IMG/VR virus record: IMGVR_UViG_3300046507_000901
Location: 1 to 24,723 of that record
Reading direction: 5' to 3' (one strand)
DNA: 24,723 bases
Origin: a virus
Shown here one piece after another: positions 4,867 through 24,723 of the stretch. The notes under the pieces were generated by a model. It saw only the letters and a list, made by a program, of their open reading frames with translations. It was not told the origin of the DNA and searched no databases. The first letter of the stretch is position 1; every line of letters starts with the position of its first letter. The position numbers and the translations under genes are program-made.

Positions 4867-4867
4867 T

Positions 4868-6896: not shown

Positions 6897-6921
6897 CAAT
6901 AATATATTTATAAGGTAAAAA

Positions 6922-9030: not shown

Positions 9031-9031
9031 A

Positions 9032-9322
9032 TTAACTTACTATAAAATCGTATTCAATTATCCAATACTCTATCCCGCCGGGGGCAAGCACCTGTACATC
9101 AGCGACCGACGAAGCGGGACTGATGCCGTAGGTCGCGAAGTAGTTGGCTACTTCAAATACACTTACCGTACCCGCATCTATCGTTGCCCCCGGCTTCAGC
9201 GCATCGGTTATCCCAATTCCGTTCAGGGCTGCAAGCGCAAACACGTTTTCCGCTGTCCCCGTGTACTGCGTGGCGATATCGGCCAGTGCCTGGCCTGCCT
9301 TGATTATCTTATTATTTGACAT
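9032..9322 (-). CDS. LysM-domain tail protein (P2 gpX-like)
   Basis: A 96-residue protein whose first half is a LysM module (IKAGQALADIATQYTGTAENVFALAALNGI... ends at LKPGATI; only key parts given). Small LysM proteins, such as gpX of P2 and gp53-like proteins, sit at the tail tube-baseplate junction and do not cut peptidoglycan. The C-terminal 40 residues contain SPASSVADVQVLAPGGIEYWI. It overlaps the wedge gene upstream by 11 bases and is followed one base later by the J-like gene. Confidence 0.75.
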   Translation of the reverse strand: MSNNKIIKAGQALADIATQYTGTAENVFALAALNGIGITDALKPGATIDAGTVSVFEVANYFATYGISPASSVADVQVLAPGGIEYWIIEYDFIVS

Positions 9323-9608
9323 AGTCTCCTCTGATATTTAAAAAGCTGTTTTCAAATCCCATGCCCTGGATCGCCACACCGTCCTGACTGAAGCGAAGCC
9401 TAATTTCACGCAGCAAATCCTCACCTGCGACGCTTCCTTCATCATTCAAAAACTGGAACGTGCCGACGGTAGCCAGCGGCGCCTGGCGGTATTCTCCCTT
9501 TTCAGCCAGCAGCAGCTTCCGCTGCTGCTGCTGGTTACTTTCACCGCGAACGAAGTCGCCGTTTACGATCAGCAGATCGTCATTGTCATCCATCAGGTAA
9601 TCAATCAT
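9312..9608 (-). CDS. gp25-like baseplate wedge protein
   Basis: A 98-residue protein with a pattern common to gp25/gpW baseplate proteins: a short strand pair around DDLLIVNGDFVRGESNQQQ, then the segment LLAEKGEYRQAPLATVG, which corresponds to the gp25 region where a conserved Pro-containing loop nucleates sheath assembly, then LLREIRLRFSQDG and a C-terminal strand. It overlaps both neighbours. It is next to spike and J-like genes, the place of gpW in P2. The canonical EPR motif of gp25 is not obvious, so the call combines length, pattern and order. Confidence 0.65.
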   Translation of the reverse strand: MIDYLMDDNDDLLIVNGDFVRGESNQQQQRKLLLAEKGEYRQAPLATVGTFQFLNDEGSVAGEDLLREIRLRFSQDGVAIQGMGFENSFLNIRGDYVK

Positions 9609-9823
9609 TGTAAATGCCCGTTAAAAGTTCCTGTTACCGGGTTATTCCCGGCTGTCAAACCATTATTGTATATGATGTCGGCCGTCCTGATATAGGCTTC
9701 CAGCCTATCGGCGAAAGCATCGATAAAAGCATCCAGCGCCACATCCCTGTCCCCGGAAGCTTCATAGGTCCGGGTGTAGACCTCTTTCAGGTCCGCCTTG
9801 AAACCCTGTGTATCCAAACTCAT
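9605..9823 (-). CDS. Small tail-locus protein, unknown
   Basis: A 72-residue acidic, mainly helical protein (DVALDAFIDAFADRLEAYI) with a flexible Gly/Asn-rich end (GLTAGNNPVTGTFNGHLQ). It overlaps the spike gene upstream by 4 bases and the wedge gene downstream by 4 bases, so it is translated as part of the baseplate block. I do not recognise the family. The end of the protein could be a partner-binding tail, perhaps to the spike or hub. Confidence 0.65.
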   Translation of the reverse strand: MSLDTQGFKADLKEVYTRTYEASGDRDVALDAFIDAFADRLEAYIRTADIIYNNGLTAGNNPVTGTFNGHLQ

Positions 9824-10281
9824 GGTAAAAGATCGTTTATACGCGTTATCAAATCGGTTATTGCTGGTACATCCTTTGGGGCGGCAATACTCAGTACCCC
9901 CCGGACAAGATCGTTAAGGATCTTGCCCAGGGTTTCGTCGCCTTTACTGACAACGACCCCATCAGGATCCACCTTGAGAATTGTGTTGCCGGTCGTTATC
10001 CGGTACATAGCGATCTGATCACAGGCGATCACGATATAATCATCATCTGCCAGCTTCCCGATCACCACCGGAGAGCCCGCGACCGGCAACACATCAATGC
10101 TTTTATGCTCGCTCATCACTGCTCTCAGGCGGACCCCATAAATTTCCACCCCGTCCAGCGTAATATCACAGGTAAAGTCGCCCTGGTCAACAGCGATCAC
10201 GACAGCATCGAGAAAGCTCACCGGTCCGCCGGCATGGGCGAGCTTTACAAACGACCTTCTTAGTTTATTTAATTCATTCAT
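9820..10281 (-). CDS. Baseplate spike protein (gpV/gp45-like)
   Basis: A 153-residue protein with an N-terminal helix, an OB-fold-like region from about residue 20 to 95 (VVIAVDQGDFTCDITLDGVE, SPVVIGKLADDDYIVIA), then TILKVDPDGVVVSKGDETL, a strand pattern typical of the trimeric beta-helix stem, and a C-terminal helical segment. This is the domain order of P2 gpV and Mu gp45 membrane-piercing spikes, except that it ends in a helix rather than an iron-binding HxH tip. It overlaps the hub gene by 4 bases. The tip may therefore be supplied by another protein. Confidence 0.75.
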   Translation of the reverse strand: MNELNKLRRSFVKLAHAGGPVSFLDAVVIAVDQGDFTCDITLDGVEIYGVRLRAVMSEHKSIDVLPVAGSPVVIGKLADDDYIVIACDQIAMYRITTGNTILKVDPDGVVVSKGDETLGKILNDLVRGVLSIAAPKDVPAITDLITRINDLLP

Positions 10282-11387
10282 TTGACCTCTGTGTTAGTTG
10301 AATCTTCGGCCAGTCTGTAGGTCAGCTGGACTTTCCGCGAGCCCCCGTTAATTCCAAAGGAAACCTCGGTACCCTCAATAAAGTAGGTGCCCGCGCGCCC
10401 GCCGTTATACTTTTTGTCGGATATGACCGCTTTCCAGCCCGGTTTGCAATAAGGCTCCAGCAGGCCCGCAATCGACCCTTCGTACCCGTCATATTTTAAC
10501 TGCATCAAACCATTCTTAGCGAGTGCGGCAAGGCTTTCCGGATGTCCGGTAAACGGAATATTACGTTCCTCGACTGCCCCCCCGGGGTCCCCCGCCTCAT
10601 AGGTGGTGACGGTGCCGGTGCGGCTGCGCTGTTTTATCCTGACCAGCACCTTGGTATCTTTGGCCGACCTGACCTTCAGATCCGGCTGATCAGATGTACA
10701 GTTAAAACCCAGGGCATAAGTGGCCTGCGCCAGGTTGGTGTTACTATGCTGACCACCTTCACCCACCGTGGACCTCACCTCGGAAATACCCGCGTACAAA
10801 ACATTGTCGTCAAAACAGACGGTTAGGAACATCTGGTCCTTGAGCGATTCCAGCACCTGGAGACCGTTCCTGTTCGGTATCCGGTAATTCGTCAGCGGCA
10901 TGTTCGGTATTTCGGGGCTCAAGACGATATCTGTCCCCGCGATGACCTGCCCGAGCACCTCGCGGAGTGAGGTTTTCTTCCAGTTGCCCAATACGTTCCT
11001 GTTGCGGAGCTGCCATGCATAACCTTCCATTTCAATGCTGACCGGCGTCGTCATGTTAACCCGTCTGACAAAGCCTCGAAATTCGTTCCTCAACGTTCCG
11101 TTATAGCCAAGATCAATGCAGACCGGGTCCCCCTCCTTAAATAGTTTGGCAATATCAACGCTTTCCGCCCGGCGATCGGAGGCGCCCCCAGGCTCTCCCA
11201 GTCCCGCGAAACCAAGGGCGTCCCTGATGGCAGAGGTCTCCTCCTTGACGATTCGGACCACCCCGGGTATTTTGAGTACCGCGCTGTCCACGATCGTGTG
11301 AATATTCTTTTTGATCACCAAGTCGTTGACACCACCCCAGAAGCTATAATTACCTATTCTGATAAAGCTGTTCAGTACAAAAGCCAT
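10278..11387 (-). CDS. Baseplate hub protein (late control gpD/gp27-like)
   Basis: A 369-residue protein with the layout of gpD/gp27 hubs, which form the trimeric ring between tube and spike. Recognisable parts are a beta-barrel with VCIDLGYNGTLRNEFRGFV, the helical part TSLREVLGQVIAG followed by NRNGLQVLESLKDQMFL, where a Bacteroidota hub would carry the typical 'vLe.Lk..y.l.v.f' pattern, and a second barrel with KVLVRIKQRSRTG near residue 245. The C-terminal region (AGTYFIEGTEVSFGINGGSR) is the usual tube-binding strand pair. It shares one base with the upstream gene and overlaps the spike gene by 4 bases. Confidence 0.85.
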   Translation of the reverse strand: MAFVLNSFIRIGNYSFWGGVNDLVIKKNIHTIVDSAVLKIPGVVRIVKEETSAIRDALGFAGLGEPGGASDRRAESVDIAKLFKEGDPVCIDLGYNGTLRNEFRGFVRRVNMTTPVSIEMEGYAWQLRNRNVLGNWKKTSLREVLGQVIAGTDIVLSPEIPNMPLTNYRIPNRNGLQVLESLKDQMFLTVCFDDNVLYAGISEVRSTVGEGGQHSNTNLAQATYALGFNCTSDQPDLKVRSAKDTKVLVRIKQRSRTGTVTTYEAGDPGGAVEERNIPFTGHPESLAALAKNGLMQLKYDGYEGSIAGLLEPYCKPGWKAVISDKKYNGGRAGTYFIEGTEVSFGINGGSRKVQLTYRLAEDSTNTEVK

Positions 11388-11998
11388 TACTTTTTATTTG
11401 GATCGATCATTAATGTTAAAATGCTGTCGCTTTTCATCTCCATCGCGAAGTCACGGACGCCTATTACCCTTGGCTTTTCCGGAATGGATAGCTTGTAGAT
11501 CAGCACGCGGTCATTTGCGGAAAGAAAAAGGTCTGAGTACGCTGATTTCAACCGAACTTCCTCTTTACTTTCAAACACATACTTGAGCGCCTGCAGCTCG
11601 TCGCCCGGTAATTGTTCCTGATATCCGATCACGAAACCTTTGACCGAGATACTCCAGTCCTTCATGCTGATGATCTGTTTGGCCGCCCCGCCGGCTTCCG
11701 TCATTTCTGTTTCTTTAATCGTTTTTTCACGTTCAAAGCCGATGACGGTATAAGGGAAAAAATATTCTATCTGGCCGACCATAATGGTCAGCGGACAAAA
11801 CACCTCGCGCCCGATTGTATCTTGGCCACCGTACAGCGCATTACCGTAAATGTTGGTATCCGTTCTCGGACTGATACTAAAGGACGGCTCGGCAGGAGCA
11901 GGCGGAAGGTCCGGAATATGGGCTGGTTTATAGCCATACAACTGCTTAAAAATGGCAGCGATATCAAATACGGTATCGTTGTGGTTTATTGTTGACAT
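11387..11998 (-). CDS. Tail adaptor-like protein (DUF6046-like)
   Basis: A 203-residue beta-rich protein with FSISPRTDTNIYGNALYGGQ, CPLTIMVGQIEYFFPYTVI and KQIISMKDWSISVKGFVIG. The last pattern (a self-interacting strand followed by 'v.G' and a helix with EELQAL-like spacing) is common in tail-tube initiator or LysM-adaptor proteins downstream of tape measures. I recall similar Bacteroidota proteins as DUF6046, from memory and not checked. Its ATG shares a base with the tape-measure stop (TAATG). The probable role is to join tube and hub. Confidence 0.65.
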   Translation of the reverse strand: MSTINHNDTVFDIAAIFKQLYGYKPAHIPDLPPAPAEPSFSISPRTDTNIYGNALYGGQDTIGREVFCPLTIMVGQIEYFFPYTVIGFEREKTIKETEMTEAGGAAKQIISMKDWSISVKGFVIGYQEQLPGDELQALKYVFESKEEVRLKSAYSDLFLSANDRVLIYKLSIPEKPRVIGVRDFAMEMKSDSILTLMIDPNKK

Positions 11999-13902
11999 TA
12001 GTTGGGATTTACGGCGGCATTACCGCTATTAATAACCTGGTTAAACATTTCGATGAATATGGCCCTGATCTCAGCGGCTCCTTCGGTCACACTTGCCGCA
12101 TGCAGGCTGATCTGGTCCACACCAAGCTTGGCTATATTAATGACCTGGTTCCTTTGACCACCTGCACTGATACCTTTAGCAGTATCTGTAACCGTTCCCG
12201 GTACATTTGCCGTAGAGGTTCCTGGAGAAATTCCCTCGTGTGTTATTGGGGCTCCCATTGATGTTAAACCATTCAAATTCATGGCTCCTATCGGGGAATT
12301 ACTCTTTTCTGTTTTACTGCGTGAAATACCTATCCCCTTAGTGCTGGTAGCAATCGTCTGTGCGTATCCTATAAATTCCTTTCCATGTTCATTTGCACGT
12401 TTGATACGTGTTCTGATCGCATCATTGAATTCTTTGTCAGCATCTGTCGTTATATGGGCTGTGAGTATGTTTTTTGCGCCTGAGAAATCGCCGTTGAGTG
12501 CCATTTTTATAGCTTGCGCAGCATTGGAGGCTAACTGGCCTATATATTGAAATACGCTTTTGGCTTTGAGGTATAGTAGATTGAATGGAAATATATAATC
12601 GTCGACCATCTCCATAAAAAGCACTTTTCCCATACCAAAAACGCTTTTAATGATTTGCCACATTGACATCAGGCTTTTCCCTACACCATCATAACTGCTG
12701 CAAAGCCAGACAACTGCCCCAACAAGTACACCTATGATGACAAGGGGCCAGAGCATCGCCGCATCGAGTATGGCCTGCCAGGTGGTTGCAATCTGCGTCC
12801 AGGAAGAATACAATGACCAGGCTATAGCCATTGCCCCGATACCCGCCGCTATGCCATACATCAGGGGCTGATTGCTTGCAAGGCCGCTGATTACATCTGC
12901 TGCTACACCCAACACCGGTAGCAAAGTTGTCGCAAGGGAAACTCCCATGGCCTCGAACGTTCCCTTTAATGCTGTTATTTTGCCAGCTGGGCTTTCAGCC
13001 ATACGCTGCATTCCGTCATGGAAATTCCCCATAGGTCCTGTTGCCGCCTGCATCGATTCAACCAACGACCGGAAACTGATCTTCCCATTGTCCAGGTCTT
13101 CACTGAGTTCGGTCGTACTCTTGCCCGTTTTTTTGCTCATTTCCAGTAAAGGGTTAAAGCCTGCATCGATTAGTTTCGGAAGATCGTCAGCGGACAGTTT
13201 ACCGCTACCTGCCGTATTGGCGAGCACATCGGATAGCGCCTTCATTCGCTCCGAATCACCTAGGGCAATATCTCCAAGCATTTTCATGCCCGGTAAAATG
13301 TTCTCAGGAGTGACTCCGGAGGCGAGTAGCTTCTTGCCCTGTGTTAAAACGTCGTCTCCAAGCCCGCTGCTTTCCGCAAAATCATTGAGGCCGCGCTTTA
13401 AGTTACCGCCATCCTTTTTCCCTGCCATAATCGCTATTTCATTACCCGTATTTTCTTTGGATATAGCTTTTTTAAACAGATCCGTTCCTACGTCAAGAAT
13501 CTTATCCAGACCCTTTTCGGCGAGTTCTTTTATCTTTGACTCTTTTTTTTCCCCTTCTTCCCCTTCCTTCTTTCCTTTAGCGGGAGAAAGGGCGGAACTC
13601 TTATTTTCGAGCTCTGCGAATTCCTTAGCGGCTACCTTGATCTCCGTGGAAAGTTTATTTCGCTGAGTTTCAAGTTCAGCAAGTTCCTTACCGGCCATCT
13701 TGATCTCACTACTGTCTATCGCTATCTGCCTTGGCTTCGTTAGGCCTTCCATCGATTCATCCAGACGGCGTACCTGTCCCTGGATCCGTCCAAGCCGCGA
13801 ACCGATGGTATGAAAGACAGCGTTTGCATTCTGAGCGAGTAAACGCATTTGGGCGGAAGCCGCATCATGCATGACGAAACTGTATTGAATTAAAGTAATC
13901 AT
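11998..13902 (-). CDS. Tail tape-measure protein
   Basis: A 634-residue protein with a Lys/Glu-rich coiled-coil region at about residues 50-135, a helical middle with Gly-rich turns, two hydrophobic segments at about 345-365 and 380-402 (GIAAGIGAMAIAW, PLVIIGVLVGAVVW), and a low-complexity end. This is the usual composition of a tape measure, which sets tail length and is threaded through the tube. It lies directly behind the chaperone pair, where tape measures are found. The phage rule of about 0.15 nm per residue would give a tail of roughly 95 nm. Its ATG begins one base after the TAA of the frameshifted chaperone. Confidence 0.92.
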   Translation of the reverse strand: MITLIQYSFVMHDAASAQMRLLAQNANAVFHTIGSRLGRIQGQVRRLDESMEGLTKPRQIAIDSSEIKMAGKELAELETQRNKLSTEIKVAAKEFAELENKSSALSPAKGKKEGEEGEKKESKIKELAEKGLDKILDVGTDLFKKAISKENTGNEIAIMAGKKDGGNLKRGLNDFAESSGLGDDVLTQGKKLLASGVTPENILPGMKMLGDIALGDSERMKALSDVLANTAGSGKLSADDLPKLIDAGFNPLLEMSKKTGKSTTELSEDLDNGKISFRSLVESMQAATGPMGNFHDGMQRMAESPAGKITALKGTFEAMGVSLATTLLPVLGVAADVISGLASNQPLMYGIAAGIGAMAIAWSLYSSWTQIATTWQAILDAAMLWPLVIIGVLVGAVVWLCSSYDGVGKSLMSMWQIIKSVFGMGKVLFMEMVDDYIFPFNLLYLKAKSVFQYIGQLASNAAQAIKMALNGDFSGAKNILTAHITTDADKEFNDAIRTRIKRANEHGKEFIGYAQTIATSTKGIGISRSKTEKSNSPIGAMNLNGLTSMGAPITHEGISPGTSTANVPGTVTDTAKGISAGGQRNQVINIAKLGVDQISLHAASVTEGAAEIRAIFIEMFNQVINSGNAAVNPN

Positions 13903-13903
13903 G

Positions 13904-14445
13904 TTATTTCGCTTCTTCTTTTCGTATTTGTTCTATTTGTTTGTATACTTCCGCCCAACGTTCATCAGACAATGTTGAGGGATCATAGGTGGTATAGTAG
14001 GCTATCGTGGTATCTATAAAACCGAGATAGTTGCTACTGATATCCCCACGGGCGGCCTCTATAATTTTTTTAGCTCCGATGATTTAATATCGAGCACGCT
14101 CTGTACCGTTGGCATGACGCTGTAAAAAGCTTCATCATCGGTTTTGATCTGCTCATCGCCGCCTAACCACAAAGTATCCAGCACGATCTCCGTATAAGTC
14201 ACCGGGTCGGTCTGCTTAGAGGTCAGTTCGCGCATCTCATCCCTGGTCGGCTTGCGCATGTAACCTTTGTAGCGGACAACAGGCACCCTGACGGGTGCTT
14301 TGCTGTCTTCACTGTGAATGGTCTCAAATTCGCCGCTATGGACTACCAGTTCAAAAACGCCGGCCGGATAATCTTTTTTCCAGGCAGCAAGCAATTCGGG
14401 TGTAACGTTAGCCGCATTGCGGGGCATGATATCTTTTGTCTTCAC
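13904..14445 (-). CDS. Tail-assembly chaperone, -1 frameshift fusion product
   Basis: A -1 slip on A-AAA-AAA (14065-14071) joins the first 127 residues of the short chaperone to a 53-codon downstream frame (starting IIEAARGDISSNYLGFIDTT, ending QIRKEEAK) that stops at TAA 13904-13906. The fusion would be about 180 residues. The downstream frame has no ATG of its own near its start, has normal protein composition, and fills the gap between chaperone and tape measure exactly (its stop lies one base before the tape-measure ATG). In tailed phages such fusions recruit tube subunits through the extra domain. That slippage occurs is inferred from sequence and from family behaviour. Confidence 0.8.
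14059..14445 (-). CDS. Tail-assembly chaperone, short (zero-frame) product
   Basis: A 128-residue protein between the tube and tape-measure genes, ending ...SSELKKL-TAG. Position, length and the frameshift site at its end match the short chaperone of the lambda G/GT and P2 E/E' type, which coats the tape measure during tail assembly. The body contains RKPTRDEMRELTSKQTDP and DTLWLGGDEQIKTDDEAF. The last codons CTA AAA AAA contain the heptamer A-AAA-AAA. The stop follows two codons later, so most ribosomes should make this form. Confidence 0.8.
   Translation of the reverse strand: MKTKDIMPRNAANVTPELLAAWKKDYPAGVFELVVHSGEFETIHSEDSKAPVRVPVVRYKGYMRKPTRDEMRELTSKQTDPVTYTEIVLDTLWLGGDEQIKTDDEAFYSVMPTVQSVLDIKSSELKKL
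14065..14071 (-). promoter_or_regulatory. Slippery heptamer for programmed -1 frameshift
   Basis: Seven A residues on the coding strand are read as A-AAA-AAA in the zero frame, the classical X-XXY-YYZ form. The zero-frame stop follows two codons later, and the -1 frame is open for 53 codons. A short GC-rich stretch (GGCCGCCCGTGGGG) begins a few bases downstream and could form a weak stimulatory hairpin. Confidence 0.8.
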
Positions 14446-14476
14446 AATTCCTTTTTTTGTTTTACTTGTTAAAAAT

Positions 14477-14911
14477 TTATACCGACTTTAAGCTTAAGGC
14501 AATGAAAGGGCAATCGATCTCCATCAGCTTGGCGCCCTGTTCCATGCCTTTTTCAAATTCAGTGAATTTGATACCGCTTATGACGTCGGTCTGTTTCTCC
14601 CTGCCAAATGCCTCTTTATAATGGAAGGTAGCTGTGATCACCTGGTAAGGCACTTCGCTGAAATCGGCGTAGCCTGCAGCCCTTGCAGCCTTATTGAGAC
14701 GGTCCAGTTCCGATTTCAATAGCTTGATACTGCCCTCGATCTTTTTATTGCCGGTCTGGATACCGACAGGCTGGTCACCGGCAGCGAAGAGGTGTTCACT
14801 TTCCGTAGATTTTTTGTACTTAAAGCCACGCAGTCCTCGGATGGTTACACCAAGAAAACTGAGGTCCGCGTGTTTCCATTCCAGTTCCTGACTGTTTACA
14901 TAATTTGCCAT
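14477..14911 (-). CDS. Tail tube protein
   Basis: A 144-residue beta-rich protein directly behind the sheath gene (2-base gap). The pattern SFLGVTIRGLRGFKYKKSTE followed by HLFAAGDQPVGIQTGNKKIEG (split here; the key part is the 'G..p.gi..G...veG.i.l' tube signature), a central helix (LLKSELDRLNKAARAAGY) and a second strand set (VITATFHYKEAFG, DVISGIKFTEFEKGM) is typical of contractile-tail tube proteins, which stack as hexamers around the tape measure. Size and order agree. Confidence 0.88.
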   Translation of the reverse strand: MANYVNSQELEWKHADLSFLGVTIRGLRGFKYKKSTESEHLFAAGDQPVGIQTGNKKIEGSIKLLKSELDRLNKAARAAGYADFSEVPYQVITATFHYKEAFGREKQTDVISGIKFTEFEKGMEQGAKLMEIDCPFIALSLKSV

Positions 14912-14913
14912 TT

Positions 14914-16110
14914 TTAGTTGTTGTTTTGCGGGTTATTGAAACCCAGTTTGATATTGATTAATTTGCTGTATCCTTTACGGCGGATGCCTATTTCAACCTG
15001 CAGGGTCGAGGTTTGGGTGATCTGCTGGGTATCGTCTATATAAACAACCGGATCTCCGCTCATGCTTTCAGCCATATTCAGGTTAAGTGCATTGACCATA
15101 GAAGCCTCGAGTGCCTTCAGCACAACCGGCTCAATCTGGCCGTTGTCATCCAGATCGATATCATCATTGATCTCATTAACATAAGTCTGGTAGGCGACGA
15201 TCGCGGCCTTGTCGATCACACGGCCAAAAGCAAGGCTGTTGTAGTCATCCGTTTCAGGACTGGCCATCGGGTCGTTGCTGATAAACAAACCGCCCTTCTG
15301 ATCATACTTTTTGACCGTGATGTACCCTGCATCGATCAGCTGGTCAAGCTGCCTGAAATAAGCCTGCGAAGGATTATCCAGGTCCGGCAGAATGCTTTGC
15401 GTACCGATGAAATAGGTACTAACCGGTAGGTCTCCGTCTTTTACCCTGCCGATATTGACATGCGGTGCGGTAGCGGCGACCCTGCCAAGCACCAGGCCGA
15501 GAGAGGTAACACCGTTTGCTGCGGTTCCGCCGATCACCAGGCCTACATTATTGGCGGTCAGCTCATTTGGACTATCGATCGTGCTGCTTGTCACATCGTT
15601 AACGCGGGCCGCAAGCAGGATACGCAACGGTTTGTGTGCGGCAAACATGGCCTGGGCGAAAGCTTTCGCATTCGGAACCGCGGTGATCACGTCGCTGTCG
15701 ATAAACTTGGATACAGTAGGTGTATACCCGGCAACCGGGGTGCGTGCAACGGCAGCTACACGGATGTCTCCGCCGCCGAAATCGATCAGCTTTTTCAGGC
15801 CGTTTGCCACGGTGAGATCGCAAAGCGACGTTAAGCTTGTCGCCGCAGCTGCGAGCATCAGGTATACAGGGCATCCCTGTGTACCGTCAATACTGTAGAA
15901 TTCACGGACGAACTGGTAGGCCTCCGGTTCGGCGTCTTCGGTGATACCCCTGGATTCGGCATCCTCTAAGCTTACAATCTTAACCGGGGTAAGCAGCGGT
16001 AGTGTTCCCGTTCCGGAACCGGTAAGCAGAACGCCTGTTACATTGTCATTGGTTGCGGTAGAGCCGCCTAGCTGGCCTTTGGCCAGTTGTACATTTACTG
16101 CAGGAATCAT
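14914..16110 (-). CDS. Contractile tail sheath protein (DUF2586-like)
   Basis: A 398-residue protein with the features of a compact sheath: an N-terminal beta region (VNVQLAKGQLGGS), a domain with AYQFVREFYSIDG and LMLAAAATSL, a central alpha/beta part (AKAFAQAMFAAHKPLRILLA), the conserved sheath-type segment NDPMASPETDDYNSLAFGRVI followed by the helix DKAAIVAYQTYVNEI, and a C-terminal strand ending in INIKLGFNNPQ that would be donated to a neighbouring subunit. It is shorter than T4 gp18 and close to P2/pyocin sheaths. It has a good Shine-Dalgarno, AAAGGAG, about 12 bases before ATG, which fits a highly made subunit, and it shares one base with the previous stop. Confidence 0.92.
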   Translation of the reverse strand: MIPAVNVQLAKGQLGGSTATNDNVTGVLLTGSGTGTLPLLTPVKIVSLEDAESRGITEDAEPEAYQFVREFYSIDGTQGCPVYLMLAAAATSLTSLCDLTVANGLKKLIDFGGGDIRVAAVARTPVAGYTPTVSKFIDSDVITAVPNAKAFAQAMFAAHKPLRILLAARVNDVTSSTIDSPNELTANNVGLVIGGTAANGVTSLGLVLGRVAATAPHVNIGRVKDGDLPVSTYFIGTQSILPDLDNPSQAYFRQLDQLIDAGYITVKKYDQKGGLFISNDPMASPETDDYNSLAFGRVIDKAAIVAYQTYVNEINDDIDLDDNGQIEPVVLKALEASMVNALNLNMAESMSGDPVVYIDDTQQITQTSTLQVEIGIRRKGYSKLINIKLGFNNPQNNN

Positions 16111-16484
16111 TAGTTTTTATCTCCTTTAATTGATTGGGTTGCCTTTTCTATCAGGCTGTTTTGAAATGGTGTTCTTTCATCGTCCGCGGTGGCAAAAGCC
16201 TCCGCTAAAGTGTTTTTCGTTGTGCCGGCAGCTTCTTTCGCCAGGTCTTTCCCTAAAGCTTCCCCGAACAGTGTCTCTCGGCGGGTAACTTCAATAAAAT
16301 CCGTGCAGGCAAGCTTTTGCGAATGACTACAGGCGGAGCCTTCAGGGAAAAAGGCCAGCCCGTCTGAGGTCACAAAGACGCTTTCCTGTTCCGGATGGGT
16401 CGCAAACAGCACTTCGAGCGAAGCTTGCGTGACCCCGGCATCACAGAGCGCCTTGATGAACGCTTGGTTCTTTTCGATTTTCAT
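16110..16484 (-). CDS. Unknown protein upstream of the sheath gene
   Basis: A 124-residue protein, mainly helical with a central strand pair (HPEQESVFVTSDGLAFFPEG), two Cys residues (SACSHSQKLACT) and an Ala/Lys-rich helical C-terminus. There is no signal peptide or membrane segment. Its TAA shares a base with the sheath ATG, so the two are translationally linked. I do not recognise the family. It may be a tail-assembly factor or a leftover of a connector gene. Confidence 0.7.
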   Translation of the reverse strand: MKIEKNQAFIKALCDAGVTQASLEVLFATHPEQESVFVTSDGLAFFPEGSACSHSQKLACTDFIEVTRRETLFGEALGKDLAKEAAGTTKNTLAEAFATADDERTPFQNSLIEKATQSIKGDKN

Positions 16485-16494
16485 TTTATATGGT

Positions 16495-16974
16495 TTATTG
16501 TTTATTGAATATTTGCTTAAAATAGATTTCGAGTATACTCACCGCCTCGCTCCAGTTTACCCGGCCTTCGCTGACGACCGTCATCAGCCTGGCGGCCAGC
16601 GCATGGTACAGATGGTCCTTATCCGCATCAGCTGCGGATTTTATTTTATCAAGCGGTCCGCTAAGCAGATCACCATGACCGGCGGGCTGACCGTCAGTCA
16701 AAAAAGTGAGCCCCGATAATATACCTGGTAATGCTTCTTCAACCATCTTCCTCATCCTGTCATCAGCGGGGCCGGCGAGCAGCGAAGCCGGTTCTGCAGT
16801 TAAATCACCGTTCAGGGCGTTTTTAATATTATTCACCACCGTGATGCAATAATCGATCTGCAGGTTACTGATCGCTATGCCTTCGGACAGGCGTACCTGG
16901 AGCGCCCTTAGCCCGGTTAGTTTTTGCAGAAGGCCGGCAAAAAGGCCGCCTATAACTCTTAAAATATTGTTCAT
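16495..16974 (-). CDS. Unknown helical protein between lysozyme and tail genes
   Basis: A 159-residue protein, predicted almost fully helical. The N-terminus is amphipathic and hydrophobic (ILRVIGGLFAGLLQKLTGL), possibly a membrane-surface helix; the rest contains DDRMRKMVEEALPGILSGL and KDHLYHALAARLMTVVSEG. It starts four bases after the lysozyme stop. With this position it could belong to the lysis cassette (an accessory or spanin-like factor) or be a tail protein. I cannot decide from the sequence, and no lipobox is visible. Confidence 0.65.
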   Translation of the reverse strand: MNNILRVIGGLFAGLLQKLTGLRALQVRLSEGIAISNLQIDYCITVVNNIKNALNGDLTAEPASLLAGPADDRMRKMVEEALPGILSGLTFLTDGQPAGHGDLLSGPLDKIKSAADADKDHLYHALAARLMTVVSEGRVNWSEAVSILEIYFKQIFNKQ

Positions 16975-16978
16975 CTAT

Positions 16979-17455
16979 TCAGACAGGTGTGTTAAACAGT
17001 TTCATTTCTTTTTCACGTCTTTTAACCAGCACTTCGCTGACTTTTTTCATTCCAGTTCCGGGATCGGTTACCTTGTTCCAGGCCAGGAACTGCGCCGCGG
17101 CCCCTGTATAATCCCCCTTGTTCAGCTTTTTCAGCAGGGTACTTGAGGGCAGGCTGCCGGTATTGTAGTGAAAGCAGACCAGCGCGTCATATTGGTTCTG
17201 ATTGACCGGTGCGCTTACCACCCTGTTCACCGTCCGTTCGAAGTCTTTTAAAACCGCTGAAAGCAGGTCCGCAGCGCATTCCTTGTTGGGCAGCCGGTCC
17301 GCCGGCTGTATCGCCTTGCCGTTCGCATAGTAAGTGCATCCGTAACCGATCGTCCATTTACCCGCCTCGTCCTGGTACGCGGTTAATTTCAGGCCCTCGA
17401 ACGACCTGATCATATTTAATCCGCGTTCACTGAGCGTATGTTTATTTATCGCCAT
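16979..17455 (-). CDS. Endolysin, GH24 (T4-type) lysozyme
   Basis: A 158-residue lysozyme of glycoside hydrolase family 24, cutting the MurNAc-GlcNAc bond of peptidoglycan. The catalytic triad has the exact T4 spacing: E20 in RSFEG, D29 in YQDEAG, T35 in WTIGYG. The later conserved segment NQYDALVCFHYNTGS is also present. There is no signal peptide or N-terminal anchor, so release through the holin is expected. It overlaps the holin gene by 10 bases. In a headless tail locus its job would be to lyse the producing cell to free the particles. Confidence 0.95.
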   Translation of the reverse strand: MAINKHTLSERGLNMIRSFEGLKLTAYQDEAGKWTIGYGCTYYANGKAIQPADRLPNKECAADLLSAVLKDFERTVNRVVSAPVNQNQYDALVCFHYNTGSLPSSTLLKKLNKGDYTGAAAQFLAWNKVTDPGTGMKKVSEVLVKRREKEMKLFNTPV

Positions 17456-17991
17456 AATGATGTTATTTTAGTTTTGATAGATTCGATCCAGGCTGATTTT
17501 TCCTTGCCTTCAATTACCGCCAGGTTTTCCAGTATGGAAACCATATTTTCCTGCGCGATATGAATGATCAGGAAGTTTTGCAGCCAGTCAAAGCATTCCG
17601 CCATGACCGCCTCCCCCTTGGCCGCGTAATTCTGAGACCAATGGTACGGGACCGCGATGAGCACCAGGTATATAAAGACCTTAAATGAAAACCGGGAGAG
17701 CCGAAAACTGCTGAAACGTTCCTTTTTTATTCTGGATGCGGCTATGCCGCTTAACAACTCCACCACAAAGGCCATCAGCATCATGACCAGGGCGGCTGTC
17801 TGGATACCAAGCGCGAGCGGGATATCCGGAACGAGGGAGGCCAGCCCCGAAAGACCCGGGAACGTCAGGCTCACCAGCAGCAGTGGTCTTGTCAGGCTGT
17901 ATTTATAAGAAGGGGCGATACTTTGAAAAAGGGCCCTCAGGTCCTCGTAGTCAAAAGTCACGAGCATCCTCGTTAGCAGAGAACTTATCAT
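17446..17991 (-). CDS. Phage holin (holin family 4 type)
   Basis: A 181-residue membrane protein, first gene of the tail/lysis operon. I chose the ATG at 17989-17991 (MISSLLTRML), because the upstream in-frame extension would run into the GC-rich leader hairpin. Hydrophobic segments lie around PLLLVSLTFPGLSGLASLV, ALGIQTAALVMMLMAFVVEL and FKVFIYLVLIAVPYHW. The segment ELLSGIAASRIKKERFSS between segments two and three matches the conserved loop of family-4 (toxin secretion/lysis) holins. It probably makes the inner-membrane holes that let the following lysozyme out. Confidence 0.85.
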   Translation of the reverse strand: MISSLLTRMLVTFDYEDLRALFQSIAPSYKYSLTRPLLLVSLTFPGLSGLASLVPDIPLALGIQTAALVMMLMAFVVELLSGIAASRIKKERFSSFRLSRFSFKVFIYLVLIAVPYHWSQNYAAKGEAVMAECFDWLQNFLIIHIAQENMVSILENLAVIEGKEKSAWIESIKTKITSLWR

Positions 17992-18036
17992 GGTACATAT
18001 TTTTATTATATAGATCTTAATTTTTCTTTTTTTAAA

Positions 18037-18078
18037 CCGCGCCGCCCCTGACCGTATCGGGGGACTATTAAGGCGCGG
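18037..18078 (-). promoter_or_regulatory. Strong hairpin in the 5' leader of the lysis/tail operon
   Basis: CCGCGCC (18037-18043) and GGCGCGG (18072-18078) form a perfect 7-bp stem, and CCCC/GGGG inside (18045-18048 with 18060-18063) can extend it. On the transcribed minus strand it lies about 45 bases before the holin ATG and is followed by TTT and seven A, not by a terminator-like T tract. It could control translation or stability of the leader. Confidence 0.55.
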
Positions 18079-18229
18079 GTGCACTTACGACCGGTATGCA
18101 TCTCCTACCCCTGCGGGGGGCCCTTTGATCAAGCAGCAACTGCTTTTCCCTGTTTTCCGGAGTTCCCAAACGGTCATTATAGGTTGTCATTTTTCTTATT
18201 TCCCGTCACCTTTCCAAGCGACTTCATGA

Positions 18230-18260
18230 CAAACGTACGGCGGGATTTCGGAGATAAAAA
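18230..18260 (-). promoter_or_regulatory. Promoter of the lysis/tail operon
   Basis: On the minus strand a TACGTTTG (18237-18230) matches the Bacteroidota -7 consensus TAnnTTTG exactly. Nineteen bases upstream lies TTTT (18260-18257) at the -33 position, where TTTG is consensus. The segment is conserved, without gaps, with the region before the fibre gene at 22378. The expected leader to the holin ATG is about 230 bases. Confidence 0.7.
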
Positions 18261-18294
18261 ACCGCGTTTATGGTTGATTGACAGTGTTTTTAAC

Positions 18295-18318
18295 AATGAT
18301 GAAAGCTGCGTTAATCAT
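18295..18318 (-). promoter_or_regulatory. 24-bp activator-box candidate A (tail operon)
   Basis: Minus-strand reading: ATGATTAACGC, then AGCT, then TTCATCATT. It shares 16 invariant positions with boxes B (22172-22195) and C (18794-18817); arms ATGAT and ATCAT are inverted. It ends 57 bases before the -7 box, the same distance as at box B. Confidence 0.65.
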
Positions 18319-18793: not shown

Positions 18794-18817
18794 AATGATG
18801 CACAGCGCATTAATCAT
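18794..18817. promoter_or_regulatory. 24-bp activator-box candidate C
   Basis: Minus-strand reading: ATGATTAATGC, then GCTG, then TGCATCATT. It matches boxes A and B at the 16 shared positions. It lies 63 bases before the -7 candidate of the plus-strand tail terminator gene. Because the box is nearly palindromic its working direction is uncertain. Confidence 0.55.
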
Positions 18818-18853: not shown

Positions 18854-18857
18854 CATC

Positions 18858-18888
18858 TTTGAATATAAAGAGCCCGGTATTACGGATA
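18858..18888 (+). promoter_or_regulatory. Promoter candidate of the tail terminator gene
   Basis: TTTG (18858-18861), exactly 19 bases, then TACGGATA (18881-18888). The -33 element and the spacing are consensus for Bacteroidota; the -7 element keeps TA but deviates in the last four bases, so activator help would be expected. Confidence 0.5.
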
Positions 18889-18960: not shown

Positions 18961-19473
18961 ATGAGCACATCACAAACAGATGCCATCCTGGCCAATGTAT
19001 TTTTGAGCGTACAGGAGCGGCTTGCCACGATCCCGGATTTACAATTTATCGGTATGGATATCGGGCAGCTGGAATGGGGCGAAGAAAATGCGAGCCCGGT
19101 CCTATTTCCCTGCGTATTGCTTGGACGGATCGATATTAACTATACCGACAACAAGAAATCCATCCAGCAGGGGGATGCCATACTGGAATTATTACTGGCC
19201 ATGGCGACACCGGGGCCGGGGCAGGACAGCGGATCTACTGCAACTGATTATTTTAATCTTGAACACAAGATCAATCAGGCCCTGCACGGCTGGTGTGACC
19301 AGCAGTATTTCAATCCCATGAGCAGGGTCCGCGCCAGGAACAAACGCAGAAAGCGGACCGATATCCGGGTTAGAGCGCTGCGTTTCGGCTTTGGCTTCGT
19401 CGACGATACCGCCATGCAGGTCGGACAAACGGGCCAACGCCCGGAGATGGTACTGTCAATGCAATTGTCCTAA
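18961..19473 (+). CDS. Probable tail terminator/completion protein
   Basis: A 170-residue protein with an N-terminal helix (DAILANVFLSVQERLATI), the strand SPVLFPCVLLGRIDINYTD, a strand after GDAILELLLAMA, a helix (YFNLEHKINQALHGW) and a basic end-region (RVRARNKRRKRTDIRVRALRF). This order resembles tail terminators, which form a hexameric ring on the head-proximal tube end. The family assignment is inferred, not certain. In a headless particle such a cap would be needed to stop tube growth. The gene is separated from the other tail genes, on the opposite strand, with a separate promoter, a box-C element and a strong terminator directly behind it. Confidence 0.65.
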   Translation: MSTSQTDAILANVFLSVQERLATIPDLQFIGMDIGQLEWGEENASPVLFPCVLLGRIDINYTDNKKSIQQGDAILELLLAMATPGPGQDSGSTATDYFNLEHKINQALHGWCDQQYFNPMSRVRARNKRRKRTDIRVRALRFGFGFVDDTAMQVGQTGQRPEMVLSMQLS

Positions 19474-19826: not shown

Positions 19827-20138
19827 TTATGACCAGTTGAAATGAGGCAGAAGCTTCTGAAGGTATTTGCTGTCCGCTTCCTCCGATTTAAGCTTTTCGA
19901 GCACGTCACGTTCCTGCATAATGATCTGGGAAATTGTTGTCTCACCCAGATAAAATTCAGTATTCAGTTTTTCAACCGCACGCTCATATTGCAGGCCTTT
20001 GATCTTGTAATGAAAATACAGGCGGCATACAATATCATGATCACGGCGCGCTTTAAAAACGCCTTTGACATGTTTAACGCCTTCTTTCTTTAAGGGTTCT
20101 GAAAGTATATTGGAAATCAATTGTTTACCGAGTGCCAT
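19827..20138 (-). CDS. Small basic protein with HTH-like segment, candidate activator
   Basis: A 103-residue protein. I chose the ATG at 20136-20138 (MALGKQLISN) rather than an ATG 23 codons upstream whose extension is hydrophobic and unlike the rest. It is basic in the first half (KGVFKARRDHDIVCRLYFHY). The part YERAVEKLNTEFYLGETTIS reads as helix, turn and the start of a second helix, resembling a helix-turn-helix, and the rest is a charged helix (QERDVLEKLKSEEADSKYL). I recall similar short Bacteroidota proteins in phage and mobile regions, from memory. As the best DNA-binding candidate in the repressor-controlled operon it may activate the 24-bp boxes; this is inference. Confidence 0.6.
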   Translation of the reverse strand: MALGKQLISNILSEPLKKEGVKHVKGVFKARRDHDIVCRLYFHYKIKGLQYERAVEKLNTEFYLGETTISQIIMQERDVLEKLKSEEADSKYLQKLLPHFNWS

Positions 20139-20387: not shown

Positions 20388-20696
20388 TCATGCGTAAAGC
20401 TTATTTAAAAGGTTCAGTTGATCATTAATGAATGCCTGTTCGTATCTCCACCGCTCCCCCAGGTAACGCTGGTTAAAATAAAGATAATATGCTTTGGCCT
20501 CCATATCAGTCAGCGATATGCTATAGCCATCGCCTTTAAGCCTGGCGGCCAGTTTTGCCTCTAGCTTTCTGAAGACCGGCTTCAGCAGGTCTTTTACCAG
20601 GCTTTCGGTCATATCAGGGGCAGGATCCTGGTTCACGATTTCCCGGAAAAGGTTGTGCAAGGCTTCCGCCTGCCGGATGGTTAGTTTTAGTGTCAT
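20388..20696 (-). CDS. Small helical Bacteroidota-type protein, unknown
   Basis: A 102-residue protein starting at the ATG 20694-20696 (MTLKLTIRQAEALHNLF); an upstream in-frame ATG would overlap the preceding gene. It is mainly helical (KDLLKPVFRKLEAKLAARL) with a conserved-looking segment ISLTDMEAKAYYLYFNQRYL and C-terminus LNLLNKLYA. I recall this pattern from hypothetical proteins of Bacteroidota mobile regions, not checked. It is the second gene of the operon and starts 11 bases after the end of the first. The role is unknown; it could be a regulator partner or anti-repressor. Confidence 0.65.
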   Translation of the reverse strand: MTLKLTIRQAEALHNLFREIVNQDPAPDMTESLVKDLLKPVFRKLEAKLAARLKGDGYSISLTDMEAKAYYLYFNQRYLGERWRYEQAFINDQLNLLNKLYA

Positions 20697-20707
20697 ATTC
20701 AAGGATG

Positions 20708-20866
20708 TTAAACAGATGGATAGCGAGTAGTGGTCAGCGTATGTTTTAAACCGGGGGCAACGCATCCTTTGCCCGGGCAGGTATCTCCTGCTGTACGTGC
20801 GTGCAGGACCGATCCGATACCGTGTTCCTTGATATAAGTGAATTTAATATTTTTATTTTTGCTCAT
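20708..20866 (-). CDS. Small unknown protein, first gene of regulatory operon
   Basis: A 52-residue protein, MSKNKNIKFTYIKEHGIG at the start and a CPGKGC motif in the middle. I chose the ATG at 20864-20866 because AAAGGA lies eight bases before it and the promoter described at 20888-20919 would give a leader of suitable length. It diverges from the repressor gene, and an operator lies in its promoter, so it should be induced when the repressor is inactivated. No family is recognised; size and position fit an anti-repressor or small regulator, but this is speculation. Confidence 0.6.
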   Translation of the reverse strand: MSKNKNIKFTYIKEHGIGSVLHARTAGDTCPGKGCVAPGLKHTLTTTRYPSV

Positions 20867-20887: not shown

Positions 20888-20919
20888 CAAATATTAGACT
20901 ATTGTCTATTATTTACAAA
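20888..20919 (-). promoter_or_regulatory. Promoter of the small-gene operon
   Basis: On the minus strand TTTG (20919-20916), 19 bases, then TAATATTTG (20896-20888), which is TAnnTTTG with one extra base. AAAGGA and the ATG at 20866 follow. Operator O1 occupies the spacer and touches the -7 element, so repressor binding would block this promoter. Confidence 0.7.
20894..20909. promoter_or_regulatory. Repressor operator O1
   Basis: TTAGAC-TATT-GTCTAT: half-sites AGAC/GTCT with a 4-base spacer, nearly perfect. It lies within the small-operon promoter and 31 bp (about three helical turns) centre to centre from O2. Confidence 0.7.
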
Positions 20920-20924
20920 TAAAA

Positions 20925-20940
20925 TTCGACAAAAGTCTAA
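20925..20940. promoter_or_regulatory. Repressor operator O2
   Basis: TTCGAC-AAAA-GTCTAA: the same GAC-N4-GTC form with one half-site change. It lies 15 bases before the repressor ATG, so it could give autoregulation. Confidence 0.7.
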
Positions 20941-20955: not shown

Positions 20956-21852
20956 ATGCCTAATAGCCCCATAGACAGGCTTTTAATTTTTTTAGCCCAC
21001 AAAAAGATTTCTCCCTCAAAGGCGGAAAGACAGTTATCGCTGGGAAATGGCTATATAAAAAAGTCCCAGCAACGGGACGGCGGCATAGGAAGCGCCATAC
21101 TGGAAAAGATCTGCAGGACATACTTAGACATTAGTCTAACATGGCTTATCACCGGCGAGGGAGCGATGCTGCTTGACGAAAAAAGCGGAGCCGTATCAGC
21201 CCCAGATGAAGCGCAAACGGTTACCGCAACAGTTGCGGCCGCCGGTACAAGCAGGCGCCCCGGCAGCTTCAAACAGCTTCAGGCTACGTCGCCCCCGATC
21301 TCTCCGCTCCAGGTGATCAGCGTGGACAGCGATGGTAACGAAACTATTTTGTACGTCCCCCTGAGAGCTTCAGCCGGCTACCCCAAGGGATACGCTGACC
21401 GGGAATATATGGAAAAGCTAACTTCTTTCAGCTTGCCATACCTGAACAACGGAACGCACCGGGCATTCGAGGTAGACGGTGACAGCATGTTCCCAACGCT
21501 CGAAAACAAGGAGATCGTAGTAGGGCGCTTTGTAGAAAAGTTTGAGGATATTGTAGAAGATCATGTGCACATCATTGTAACCAGGGACCGGGGTATACTG
21601 ATCAAGAGACTGCTGAACAGGATCCAGAAATATGGCTTTATCGTCGCCAAATCCGATGCCCTGGACAACCGTAACCTGTATCCTAACCAGGAGATCTACC
21701 CCGATGAAGTGGTGGAGGTCTGGTTTGCAGTGGGCCACATCAATAATAAGTTCCGGCACCCGACAGACATGTATAAGCGCGTGAACAACTTGGAGGCGGA
21801 CCTTACAGAAATCATGAGGGTGCTGAAGTCGAAAAACCTGCTGGATAAATAA
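20956..21852 (+). CDS. HTH / S24-peptidase phage-type repressor (CI/LexA-like)
   Basis: A 298-residue repressor. Residues 1-65 form an HTH-like DNA-binding region (PSKAERQLSLGNGYIKKS). The C-terminal half is an S24 (LexA/CI) autoprotease: the cleavage site is Ala140-Gly141 in RASAGYPKGY, the nucleophile is S177 in VDGDSMFPTL, and the general base is K217 in GILIKRLL. The linker is Ala/Pro/Thr-rich. On DNA damage, RecA-stimulated self-cleavage should inactivate it, as known for the family. Operators O1 and O2 are just upstream and O3 lies in codons 57-62. There is no good Shine-Dalgarno and I could not resolve its own promoter. A stem-loop follows at 21945-21968. Confidence 0.92.
   Translation: MPNSPIDRLLIFLAHKKISPSKAERQLSLGNGYIKKSQQRDGGIGSAILEKICRTYLDISLTWLITGEGAMLLDEKSGAVSAPDEAQTVTATVAAAGTSRRPGSFKQLQATSPPISPLQVISVDSDGNETILYVPLRASAGYPKGYADREYMEKLTSFSLPYLNNGTHRAFEVDGDSMFPTLENKEIVVGRFVEKFEDIVEDHVHIIVTRDRGILIKRLLNRIQKYGFIVAKSDALDNRNLYPNQEIYPDEVVEVWFAVGHINNKFRHPTDMYKRVNNLEADLTEIMRVLKSKNLLDK
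21124..21139. promoter_or_regulatory. Intragenic repressor operator O3
   Basis: TTAGAC-ATTA-GTCTAA, with perfect 6-bp inverted half-sites, inside the repressor coding region (codons for ...LDISL...). It is the best match among the three operators. Its distance of about 200 bp from O1/O2 would allow DNA looping or a roadblock to repressor transcription. Confidence 0.65.
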
Positions 21853-22171: not shown

Positions 22172-22195
22172 ATGATTGACGCTACATTAATCATT
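22172..22195 (+). promoter_or_regulatory. 24-bp activator-box candidate B (third fibre)
   Basis: ATGATTGACGC, then TACA, then TTAATCATT. It has the 16 positions shared by boxes A and C and ends exactly 57 bases before the -7 box of the fibre promoter, as box A does before its promoter. Confidence 0.65.
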
Positions 22196-22229
22196 ACCCT
22201 GAGGGCAATTAATCACCCAAAAACCGCGT

Positions 22230-22260
22230 TTTTTATCGCCAAAATCCCGTTGTACGTTTA
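22230..22260 (+). promoter_or_regulatory. Promoter of the third fibre gene
   Basis: TTTT (22230-22233), 19 bases, TACGTTTA (22253-22260), one base from the TAnnTTTG consensus. From about 22206 to 22260 it aligns without gaps with the tail-operon promoter at about 42 of 55 positions, so both promoters are probably read together. Confidence 0.7.
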
Positions 22261-22377: not shown

Positions 22378-24723
22378 ATGGCATCAAGATTAACATTAAA
22401 AGGCTTTTTTAAAAAAGGAGCGAAACCAACGGCTGGCCAGTTTGCTTCCTGGATAGACTCATTCTGGCATAAGGATGAAGATGCGATTCCGGTTGACAAA
22501 GTAGCTGGTTTATCAGAAGTTTTAGCCGGCAAAACATCGACGGACTCGCTGGACTATGAAACAGCCCAAAGGGTTTCAGCGGATTCAAACTTACAATCCC
22601 AAATCGATTATCTTACTAACCGCGGCATAGACTACATTGCGGAAAATGCCGCAAATAAAAACGCCGCAAACGGCTATGCGGGGTTAGATGAAACAGGCAA
22701 AATCGCTGCAGCTCAATTGCCCTCTTATGTGGACGACGTGATGGAATTTGCGGTTTTTTCAGCACTGCCTGTACCGGGGGATCCTGGTAAAATCTATATA
22801 ACCACTGACAATAATAACGAATACCGGTGGAGTGGTTCAACCTATGTTCAAATCGTCGCCTCGCCCGGTTCTACCGATGCTGTACCGGAAGGCGCAACAA
22901 ACAAGTATTTTACGGGTTCAAGAGTATTAAACGCTATTTTAACCGGAATTAGCTTTGGTACATCTGCAGCAGTTACGGCAACAGATACCATCTCACAGGC
23001 TTTGGGTAAATTACAGGCTCAAATAACGGGTTTGTTTAAAATCCCCACAGGCGGTGCAGCCGGACAGGTACTGGCTAAAAACAGCAATACAGATGGTGAT
23101 GTGTATTGGGTAAATGCGCCATCTGAAGGAGCACAAGGCCCCGCCGGTGTCGGCGTTCCCAATGGGGGGACGGCAGGTCAGATATTAGCTAAAAACACCA
23201 ATACCGATGGCGATACACATTGGATTAATGCGCCGTCCGGCGGCGGCAGCGGTTCCTCAGAACCTTCCGGCCAAATAAAATCTTTCCGGGTTGATTACGG
23301 CGCAGCAGGTGACGGGGTGACCAACGACCTGGCTGCTATCAATAATGCTATTGCGGCCAATGATGTCTTAGAGGACAACGGGGACTTCTTTATATCAGGA
23401 GGGAGTATTTCAAATAAATATGGAAAAAGAATCCAGGGGAATATCCGCTTTCTTCAGAACAGTGTTAACGGCACAGGCCAGTTACAGCAATTAAACAGCT
23501 ACGCGGATGACGGCCAGCATATTTTTGGCGCTGAATATTTGAGTTCTTTTCATAAAAAATTGAAAGCTAACATGACCGCCACTACGCCTACTCCATTAAC
23601 GATCGTATTTAGCGGAGATAGCACTACAGCAGGAACGGAAGACGGATCGGATACGGCTATAGACCAGTTATTCACAGTCATGATGGCCAAGGATTACATA
23701 CCTGCTATAACTACAGTGAATCATGGCAGGGGTGGTAAAACTGCTTCAGACTGGCTGTCGACCTATCTGGCAGACGATCTGGCGGCTAACCCTGATGTCC
23801 TGGTGATCAGATGGGGGATTAATGACACCGCCAATGGTGTCACGCCGAAACAGTTAGTGGACATGATGGATGCTGGTCTCAGCACCATTCGCAGCAATTC
23901 TTCTTTCACCAAAAACAAGCTTGCTATCGTATTATGCTCTATGAATACAACTACAGACGACCATCTCAGTCACAAGGGGGAGATATTCAACGAAGAGTAT
24001 AACAGGGGCTTAAGAACACTTGCAAGAAAATATGCTTGCTGCTATATAGATATATACGCTTTGTGGCAGGATGCAAGACAAGGCCATGATTATTTCATCC
24101 CATACGATACAAGCAATTACCCTAATGAATTTATACACCCATCAAGATCATTTAAGATTTTGATCGCATGCAAAACTTATGAGATTTTATTCCCTATATA
24201 TTACAGAGGCAGAGATATTGTAGACCTTGGAGCATCATCACGCTTATTTACAGCGCCACCGACTTCATATCGTTATGGAATGACCTACGAATGCGTCAAC
24301 ACATCTAACGGCTGGCCTATAGATGGATTTTTGATCACTCACCGGCTTAATTATGATATGTACAGGCAAGAACTGGCTTCCTATGGTTCTACTGATAATA
24401 AACTGTATATAAGGGTTGGATGGAATGCGGGAGGCTGGCAGCCTTTTTATGTTGTGGAACCGCTACCAGTTCAAACTTCATATAACAGGAATAATTCCGG
24501 GGCAAAATTTACTGATGCCTATACATCCTGGCCCAATTTTGCGATGACGATGGAATATGTCGAAACAACTAACGGCTGGCCTGTTGACGGCGTTTTACAT
24601 ACCATGAGAATAGAAGGCATCTTTAATCAGACACTGACAAGTTACAGTACACCACTCCGTCAATTTGTTAGAGGTGGTTTCTTGAGCGCCGGCACATTTA
24701 AAGAAGTTAGTTTTATCTCTTAA
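22378..24723 (+). CDS. Large tail fibre with SGNH domain and two pyocin-knob-like repeats
   Basis: A 781-residue protein. Residues 1-55 are the foot domain (MASRLTLKGFFKKGAKPTAG...) shared with the minus-strand fibres. A helical part and two linkers follow (GGAAGQVLAKNSNTDGD, GGTAGQILAKNTNTDGD) around a GPAGVGVP stub. Next comes an SGNH domain with S415 in FSGDST, GIND (G480, N482, D483) and EFIHPS (E584, H587), where Glu replaces the usual Asp. Two tandem repeats with the signature NGWP-[IV]-DG (about 621-700 and 713-781) resemble pyocin-knob domains of tail fibres. The gene is complete, lies inverted on the far side of the locus, and has its own promoter and box B. Confidence 0.88.
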   Translation: MASRLTLKGFFKKGAKPTAGQFASWIDSFWHKDEDAIPVDKVAGLSEVLAGKTSTDSLDYETAQRVSADSNLQSQIDYLTNRGIDYIAENAANKNAANGYAGLDETGKIAAAQLPSYVDDVMEFAVFSALPVPGDPGKIYITTDNNNEYRWSGSTYVQIVASPGSTDAVPEGATNKYFTGSRVLNAILTGISFGTSAAVTATDTISQALGKLQAQITGLFKIPTGGAAGQVLAKNSNTDGDVYWVNAPSEGAQGPAGVGVPNGGTAGQILAKNTNTDGDTHWINAPSGGGSGSSEPSGQIKSFRVDYGAAGDGVTNDLAAINNAIAANDVLEDNGDFFISGGSISNKYGKRIQGNIRFLQNSVNGTGQLQQLNSYADDGQHIFGAEYLSSFHKKLKANMTATTPTPLTIVFSGDSTTAGTEDGSDTAIDQLFTVMMAKDYIPAITTVNHGRGGKTASDWLSTYLADDLAANPDVLVIRWGINDTANGVTPKQLVDMMDAGLSTIRSNSSFTKNKLAIVLCSMNTTTDDHLSHKGEIFNEEYNRGLRTLARKYACCYIDIYALWQDARQGHDYFIPYDTSNYPNEFIHPSRSFKILIACKTYEILFPIYYRGRDIVDLGASSRLFTAPPTSYRYGMTYECVNTSNGWPIDGFLITHRLNYDMYRQELASYGSTDNKLYIRVGWNAGGWQPFYVVEPLPVQTSYNRNNSGAKFTDAYTSWPNFAMTMEYVETTNGWPVDGVLHTMRIEGIFNQTLTSYSTPLRQFVRGGFLSAGTFKEVSFIS

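Follow-up and report, generated by a model that had tools for sequence, protein, structure and literature searches.

A probable late-promoter module of Mu-like phages, with its candidate activator, in a tailocin-like locus of Mucilaginibacter

The R and F pyocins of Pseudomonas aeruginosa are regulated by PrtR and PrtN, with a P-box (PMC8609362), and the P2-like BceTMilo tailocin has kept Ogr together with a CI-like repressor (PMC5411513). Excerpts of the report on Flavobacterium phage fF4 note a Mor-like ORF by HHpred (PMC7761591), and the hankyphage is placed under a CI-like repressor in excerpts of PMC12135933; a late promoter, operator or late activator is not described for either phage in those excerpts. 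More widely, the open-licence literature yielded no account of late-gene control in Mu-like phages of Bacteroidota, the hankyphage included, and no Mu-like prophage of Mucilaginibacter, and its titles and abstracts held nothing specific on Bacteroidetes tailocins.

The window, by which we mean the whole stretch of DNA analysed here (24,723 nucleotides of IMG/VR virus record IMGVR_UViG_3300046507_000901), appears to be a tailocin-like locus of Mucilaginibacter, a contractile tail domesticated from a Mu-like phage. Its main genes are as follows, placed relative to three promoter boxes, A, B and C, that are detailed further below.

2766-16974, minus strand: tail operon, with no head genes
to 2766, minus strand: fibres and esterases at the end of the tail operon
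10278-11387, minus strand: baseplate hub
11998-13902, minus strand: tape measure
14477-14911, minus strand: tube
14914-16110, minus strand: sheath (DUF2586)
16979-18084, minus strand: lysozyme (16979-17455) and holin (17446-18084, as ORF), the first genes behind box A
18961-19473, plus strand: tail-completion-type gene (phrog_6911), alone behind box C
19827-20138, minus strand: candidate late activator, an HTH protein of 103 aa, phrog_17154 family
20388-20866, minus strand: two small early-type ORFs between repressor and activator (20388-20693, and 20735-20866, which is remnant-like)
20894-20940, no strand assigned: TTAGACTATTGTCTA and TTCGACAAAAGTCTAA, likely operators of the S24 repressor, situated between its gene and the leftward operon and bearing no relation to the boxes
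20956-21852, plus strand: S24/CI-like repressor, with the Ala-Gly (RASAGYPKG), Ser (GDSMFPT) and Lys (LIKRL) motifs of self-cleaving repressors, read from the sequence
22378-24723, plus strand: extra tail-fibre gene with a GDSL esterase domain, behind box B, at the contig end

The gene set is that of an R-type tailocin, comprising sheath, tube, tape measure, hub, holin and lysozyme without the head or packaging set; terminase, portal, capsid and transposase genes were not found within the 24.7-kb window, which also encodes DUF6046 and GDSL esterases. Two virus records and the Mucilaginibacter genome G127 contain closely related loci. For 11 genes, dN/dS calculated against two related loci is 0.005-0.14, which shows strong purifying selection: the locus is being maintained and is not decaying. 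The fibre genes at 2766-4604, 5575-6894 and 22378-24723 share their N-terminal ~83 aa and differ in their C-terminal parts, two of the three having GDSL esterase domains. Downstream of the fibres, the ORFs at 1036-1995 and 1916-2764 are neighbouring paralogues (~28% identity), one of them weakly DUF5074-like.

An earlier note on this DNA had described a 24-bp box, with the pattern ATGATTrAyGC-N4-TknATCATT, in two copies, A and B. Both lie where it had placed them, as exact matches to the pattern that each end 57 nt before TACGTTTG/A, and the -33 position is, as it had remarked, not TTTG, being occupied by a T-tract. Two boxes proved too few, as a third exact match, box C, is present. The parts of the three copies are:

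18295-18318, minus strand: box A, a 23-bp palindromic predicted operator, ATGATTAACGCAGCTTTCATCAT(T), exact match to the pattern
18272-18283, minus strand: GTCAATCA, the third half-site of copy A; it lies 22 bp past the right arm of the palindrome, with its end 36 nt short of the -7 box
18256-18264, minus strand: T-tract of copy A, GGTTTTTTA, replacing the -33 TTTG box and kept in relatives
18230-18237, minus strand: -7 box A, TACGTTTG, of the holin-lysozyme-tail transcript, predicted to start near 18224
18794-18817, plus strand: box C, exact pattern match on the minus strand, read on the plus strand as 18795-18817, ATGATGCACAGCGCATTAATCAT
18854-18861, plus strand: -7 box C, CATCTTTG, exactly 36 nt from box C, like the terminase promoters of complete phages
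22172-22195, plus strand: box B, ATGATTGACGCTACATTAATCATT, exact pattern match
22209-22215, plus strand: third half-site of copy B, TTAATCA
22253-22260, plus strand: -7 box B, TACGTTTA, upstream of the extra tail-fibre gene

Because the pattern was built from A and B alone, box C, which serves a leftward-type promoter facing 18961, is an out-of-sample match, where chance would give 0.07 matches in the window at up to three mismatches. Copies A and B agree at 19/24 positions of the box, 36/57 of the spacer (15/30 in its first half, 21/27 in its second) and 7/8 of the -7 box, so the figure of 42 of 55 given previously was too high. On each flank identity drops to 13/40, so conservation does not extend past the edges of the element. 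One promoter has clearly been copied within this locus, and one might hold that the likeness of A, B and C reflects recent DNA duplication only, with no regulatory meaning; we regard this as extremely improbable, given that similarity ends at the edges of the element, that boxes A and C are conserved islands in intergenic DNA among the tailocin loci, and that distant phages keep the geometry with different sequences. In G127, box B and its fibre gene have decayed together; in the corresponding stretch (L050, 12520-13300) the box-B promoter persists as a remnant carrying indels, the start of the fibre gene is decayed, and genes of conjugation type come next.

Comparison with complete relatives suggests where the element came from. 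In the Mu-like prophage relatives (L023/L024, L026/L025, L052, L053, L055, L058, L063 and L064), MuA and MuB homologues are followed by GemA, the 103-aa protein, a leftward packaging operon, of which the phrog_6911 gene is the last gene, and a rightward protease-capsid-holin-tail operon. The element sits between the divergent terminase and protease/capsid operons of these complete prophages. On the leftward side, 36 nt separate the left arm of the palindrome from the start of the -7 box (cAnnTTTG); on the rightward side, the third half-site is the same 36 nt away from its -7 box, so that in both directions a half-site ends 36 nt before a -7 box. The two -7 boxes are 118 nt apart and, owing to the 36-nt spacings on both sides, the dyad centre is 48 nt away from the leftward one and 70 nt away from the rightward one. 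This geometry is gap-free in relatives with sheath identity down to 66%. The half-site at 36 nt, rather than the box end at 57 nt, is the probable activator-proximal contact. In the tailocin the two outlets have been parted: copy A has kept the rightward -7 box, for holin, lysozyme and tail, and lost the leftward one, whereas copy C has kept the leftward box CATCTTTG exactly 36 nt away in 4/4 tailocin-type loci and lost the rightward one, with the tail-completion gene downstream. Copy B, we infer, drives the extra tail fibre. Judged by its sequence and setting, the element is the late promoter of Mu-like phages, retained after loss of the head and transposase genes, and is not particle-specific in origin. 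A better description is that of a domesticated tail locus in which the late-promoter module of a phage has been kept, together with its candidate activator, and has been multiplied.

The geometry holds where the sequence does not. Phages of the same bacterial family with diverged 103-aa proteins have other operator sequences (L096, TATCATAGCAATAATTGCTATGATA; L105, ATATCTATGCAATAGCGTTATAGATA), and across phages with other operator sequences the dyad at -70 recurs to a degree reached by none of 20,000 shuffles, as does the third half-site at +22 bp (likewise 0/20,000). Two phages outside the set from which the rule was drawn, G837 and, from another order, the Elizabethkingia phage TCUEAP3, fit it exactly. 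One relative speaks against the rule: at the expected place L063 has a weak dyad (2/9). Site 2 is a full palindrome only in TCUEAP3, the others having a half-site, so the full palindrome was set aside as a general description. Divergent -7 boxes 116-118 nt apart occur in hankyphage p00, a P. gingivalis phage and other distant Mu-like phages, with a P value for this spacing that is nominal, since the range was fixed after the data had been seen; a pair at 116 nt in G734 was discounted as probably lying inside the protease gene. A dyad with a 22-bp repeat at the exact position was not found in the hankyphage, the P. gingivalis phage, G571, G538, G673 or G734.

Among 150 Mucilaginibacter genomes, the composite of box, 57-nt spacer and TACGTTTG is almost restricted to loci of this kind. 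At up to three mismatches it has four matches there, three of them in activator-bearing prophage or tailocin loci and one that looks like chance. Pattern matches in unrelated viral contigs (L013-L015, L017 and L018) come without a promoter and were put down to chance. These results bear on whether the boxes might bind an activator supplied by the host rather than the phage-encoded 103-aa protein. Binding by the latter is a prediction, and some elements have the protein without the box, both of which leave room for a host factor; yet the composite is all but absent elsewhere in the 150 host-genus genomes, and a single host factor is hard to reconcile with a constant geometry around dyad sequences that vary among phages of one bacterial family. 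We consider a host activator unlikely. Similarity of operators correlates with that of activators in a Mantel test (r 0.69), a value that cannot separate co-evolution from descent because the core promoter correlates too (r 0.71).

The best candidate for the binder is the 103-aa HTH protein. In complete phages it occupies the position of Mor/C, after early genes that include GemA. Each of the 16 homologues in the initial collection matches phrog_17154, a family with no assigned function. The protein is 100% identical at a dS of 0.79 (dN/dS 0.005), and is the most conserved among the proteins compared. Two AlphaFold models (pLDDT 74 and 77) show a helical protein whose C-terminal half contains an HTH. 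Structural matches include Mu C (Z 5.7, 24% identity) and Mor (Z 5.0, 21%) among many HTH proteins; these two have the highest sequence identity among the matches listed, all of which have Z below 7 and cover the HTH part only. In hhalign the HTH falls in register with that of C, at a probability of 8%. Foldseek gave no significant match, and a sequence search of solved structures found nothing. None of 16 members matched the Pfam Mor family at E up to 10, no Pfam family was significant, and the N-terminal GG-xxx-YIP-G motif, invariant in six Mor/C proteins, is absent from the 103-aa family. By these tests the protein may work like Mor/C, but they do not place it in that family.

A search of genome contigs with the activator as query recovered three loci only. 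Beyond the prophages and tailocins, small transposable elements encode activators 62-64% identical to that of the window, with no box found nearby, which counts against the pairing of activator and box. Eight small transposable elements (L054, L056, at ~9 kb, L057, L060, L061, L099, L102 and L104) have a late-activator homologue and a short protease-like gene alongside MuB-like genes, frequently GemA-like genes as well, and sometimes a tape measure and hub, L056 also having a phage-type tail fibre; terminase large subunit, portal, capsid and sheath were not found in the eight. By analogy with P4 delta for P2, they look like satellites of Mu-like phages that carry the late activator of the helper. 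In hankyphage p00 a homologue lies at the same genome position (L109 3684-3947; BK010646 about 10183-10446), where it is annotated as a hypothetical protein.

The S24/CI-like repressor is encoded within the locus, between the boxes, which invites the explanation that the boxes are its operators and that the tail genes are repressed directly. Its S24 domain scores 22.9 bits in Pfam against a cut-off of 23.3, and matches phrog_4 at E 2e-12. However, the divergent promoter of the repressor itself has different palindromes, TTAGACwwwwGTCTAA, and these vary in step with its N-terminal domain. L026 has an unchanged box, although the repressor of that phage (L025) matches that of the window in the C-terminal part only. 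With an N-terminus and operator that differ between the two, and a box that does not, the S24 protein is an unlikely binder of the box. A dyad centre ~70 nt upstream of the -7 box would, further, be a poor spot from which to occlude polymerase. Direct repression through the boxes is accordingly a very unlikely reading, in our judgement. Instead, the repressor probably controls the activator through its separate operators, which in the tailocin is proposed from gene order. Co-transcription of the activator under the repressor is uncertain there, on account of the ~250 bp between the 20388 ORF and the activator gene.

Overall, we think it likely that a late-gene activator of phage origin has the boxes as its operators, and that the locus is a domesticated tail descended from a Mu-like phage. 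The scheme that follows adds a binder, activation, repressor control and induction to elements, geometry, conservation, linked genes and purifying selection, which are sequence-based. The S24/CI-like repressor would hold the activator operon off until it is lost, probably through self-cleavage after DNA damage, whereupon the 103-aa HTH activator would be made. Bound as dimers 22 bp apart to the 23-bp palindrome and the half-site next to it, the activator would sit at a constant distance upstream of Bacteroidota -7 boxes that have no -33 TTTG, and would turn on holin, lysozyme and tail from box A, the tail-completion gene from box C and the extra fibre from box B. In complete phages, one element would fire both late operons outward as a single divergent promoter. 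The dedicated particle regulon proposed earlier, with its P-box-like logic, is well supported on comparative grounds by specificity across the 150 genomes, fixed geometry, the linked HTH candidate and the S24/CI-like repressor; the element, however, is not particle-specific in origin, and it has three copies.

A broader proposal, to which we give a little less than even credence, is that, across the whole of the Bacteroidota, Mu-like phages, the gut hankyphage among them, use one two-way promoter (-7 boxes 116-118 nt apart and facing away from each other) to control both late operons around an operator for the phrog_17154 activator, that operators are phage-specific, and that tailocins and satellite-like elements kept or took the activator, as P4 does with P2. 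Neither the two-way late promoter nor the activator family was found described in the open-licence literature. The analysis offers a concrete candidate function for an unnamed family in Bacteroidota Mu-like phages, among them the hankyphage, and an example of a phage late promoter split into copies as the phage became a tailocin. Phage-specific pairs of operator and activator, if true, would be useful inducible promoters for Bacteroidota.

Among known systems, Mor/C of Mu resembles the candidate activator in its position after GemA-type early genes, in being a small HTH protein, in a low-probability HTH alignment and weak fold match and, by inference, in addressing late promoters through a dyad. 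The differences are the lack of a significant Pfam match and of the GG-xxx-YIP-G motif, and the two divergent promoters served; the site here also lies further upstream than that of Mor/C in Mu. With fF4 and hankyphage p00 the locus has in common a Mu-like gene order and a CI-like repressor, and with p00 also an activator homologue and a similar divergent -7 pair. As with the PrtR/PrtN pyocins, a phage-tail particle is involved, an S24-type repressor is proposed to control a small activator, and a conserved box stands upstream of lysis and tail genes, a common box preceding each late unit in that A, B and C lie upstream of three units. Unlike the pyocins, the locus belongs to another phylum and uses another promoter type, and its operator combines a palindrome with a half-site at 22 bp, held at a fixed distance and derived from a two-way phage promoter. 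BceTMilo is likewise a head-less tail locus in which a CI-like repressor and the late activator of the parent phage have been retained, but whereas that parent was P2-like and the activator Ogr, here the parent appears to have been a Mu-like phage of Bacteroidota and the putative activator belongs to an unnamed HTH family.
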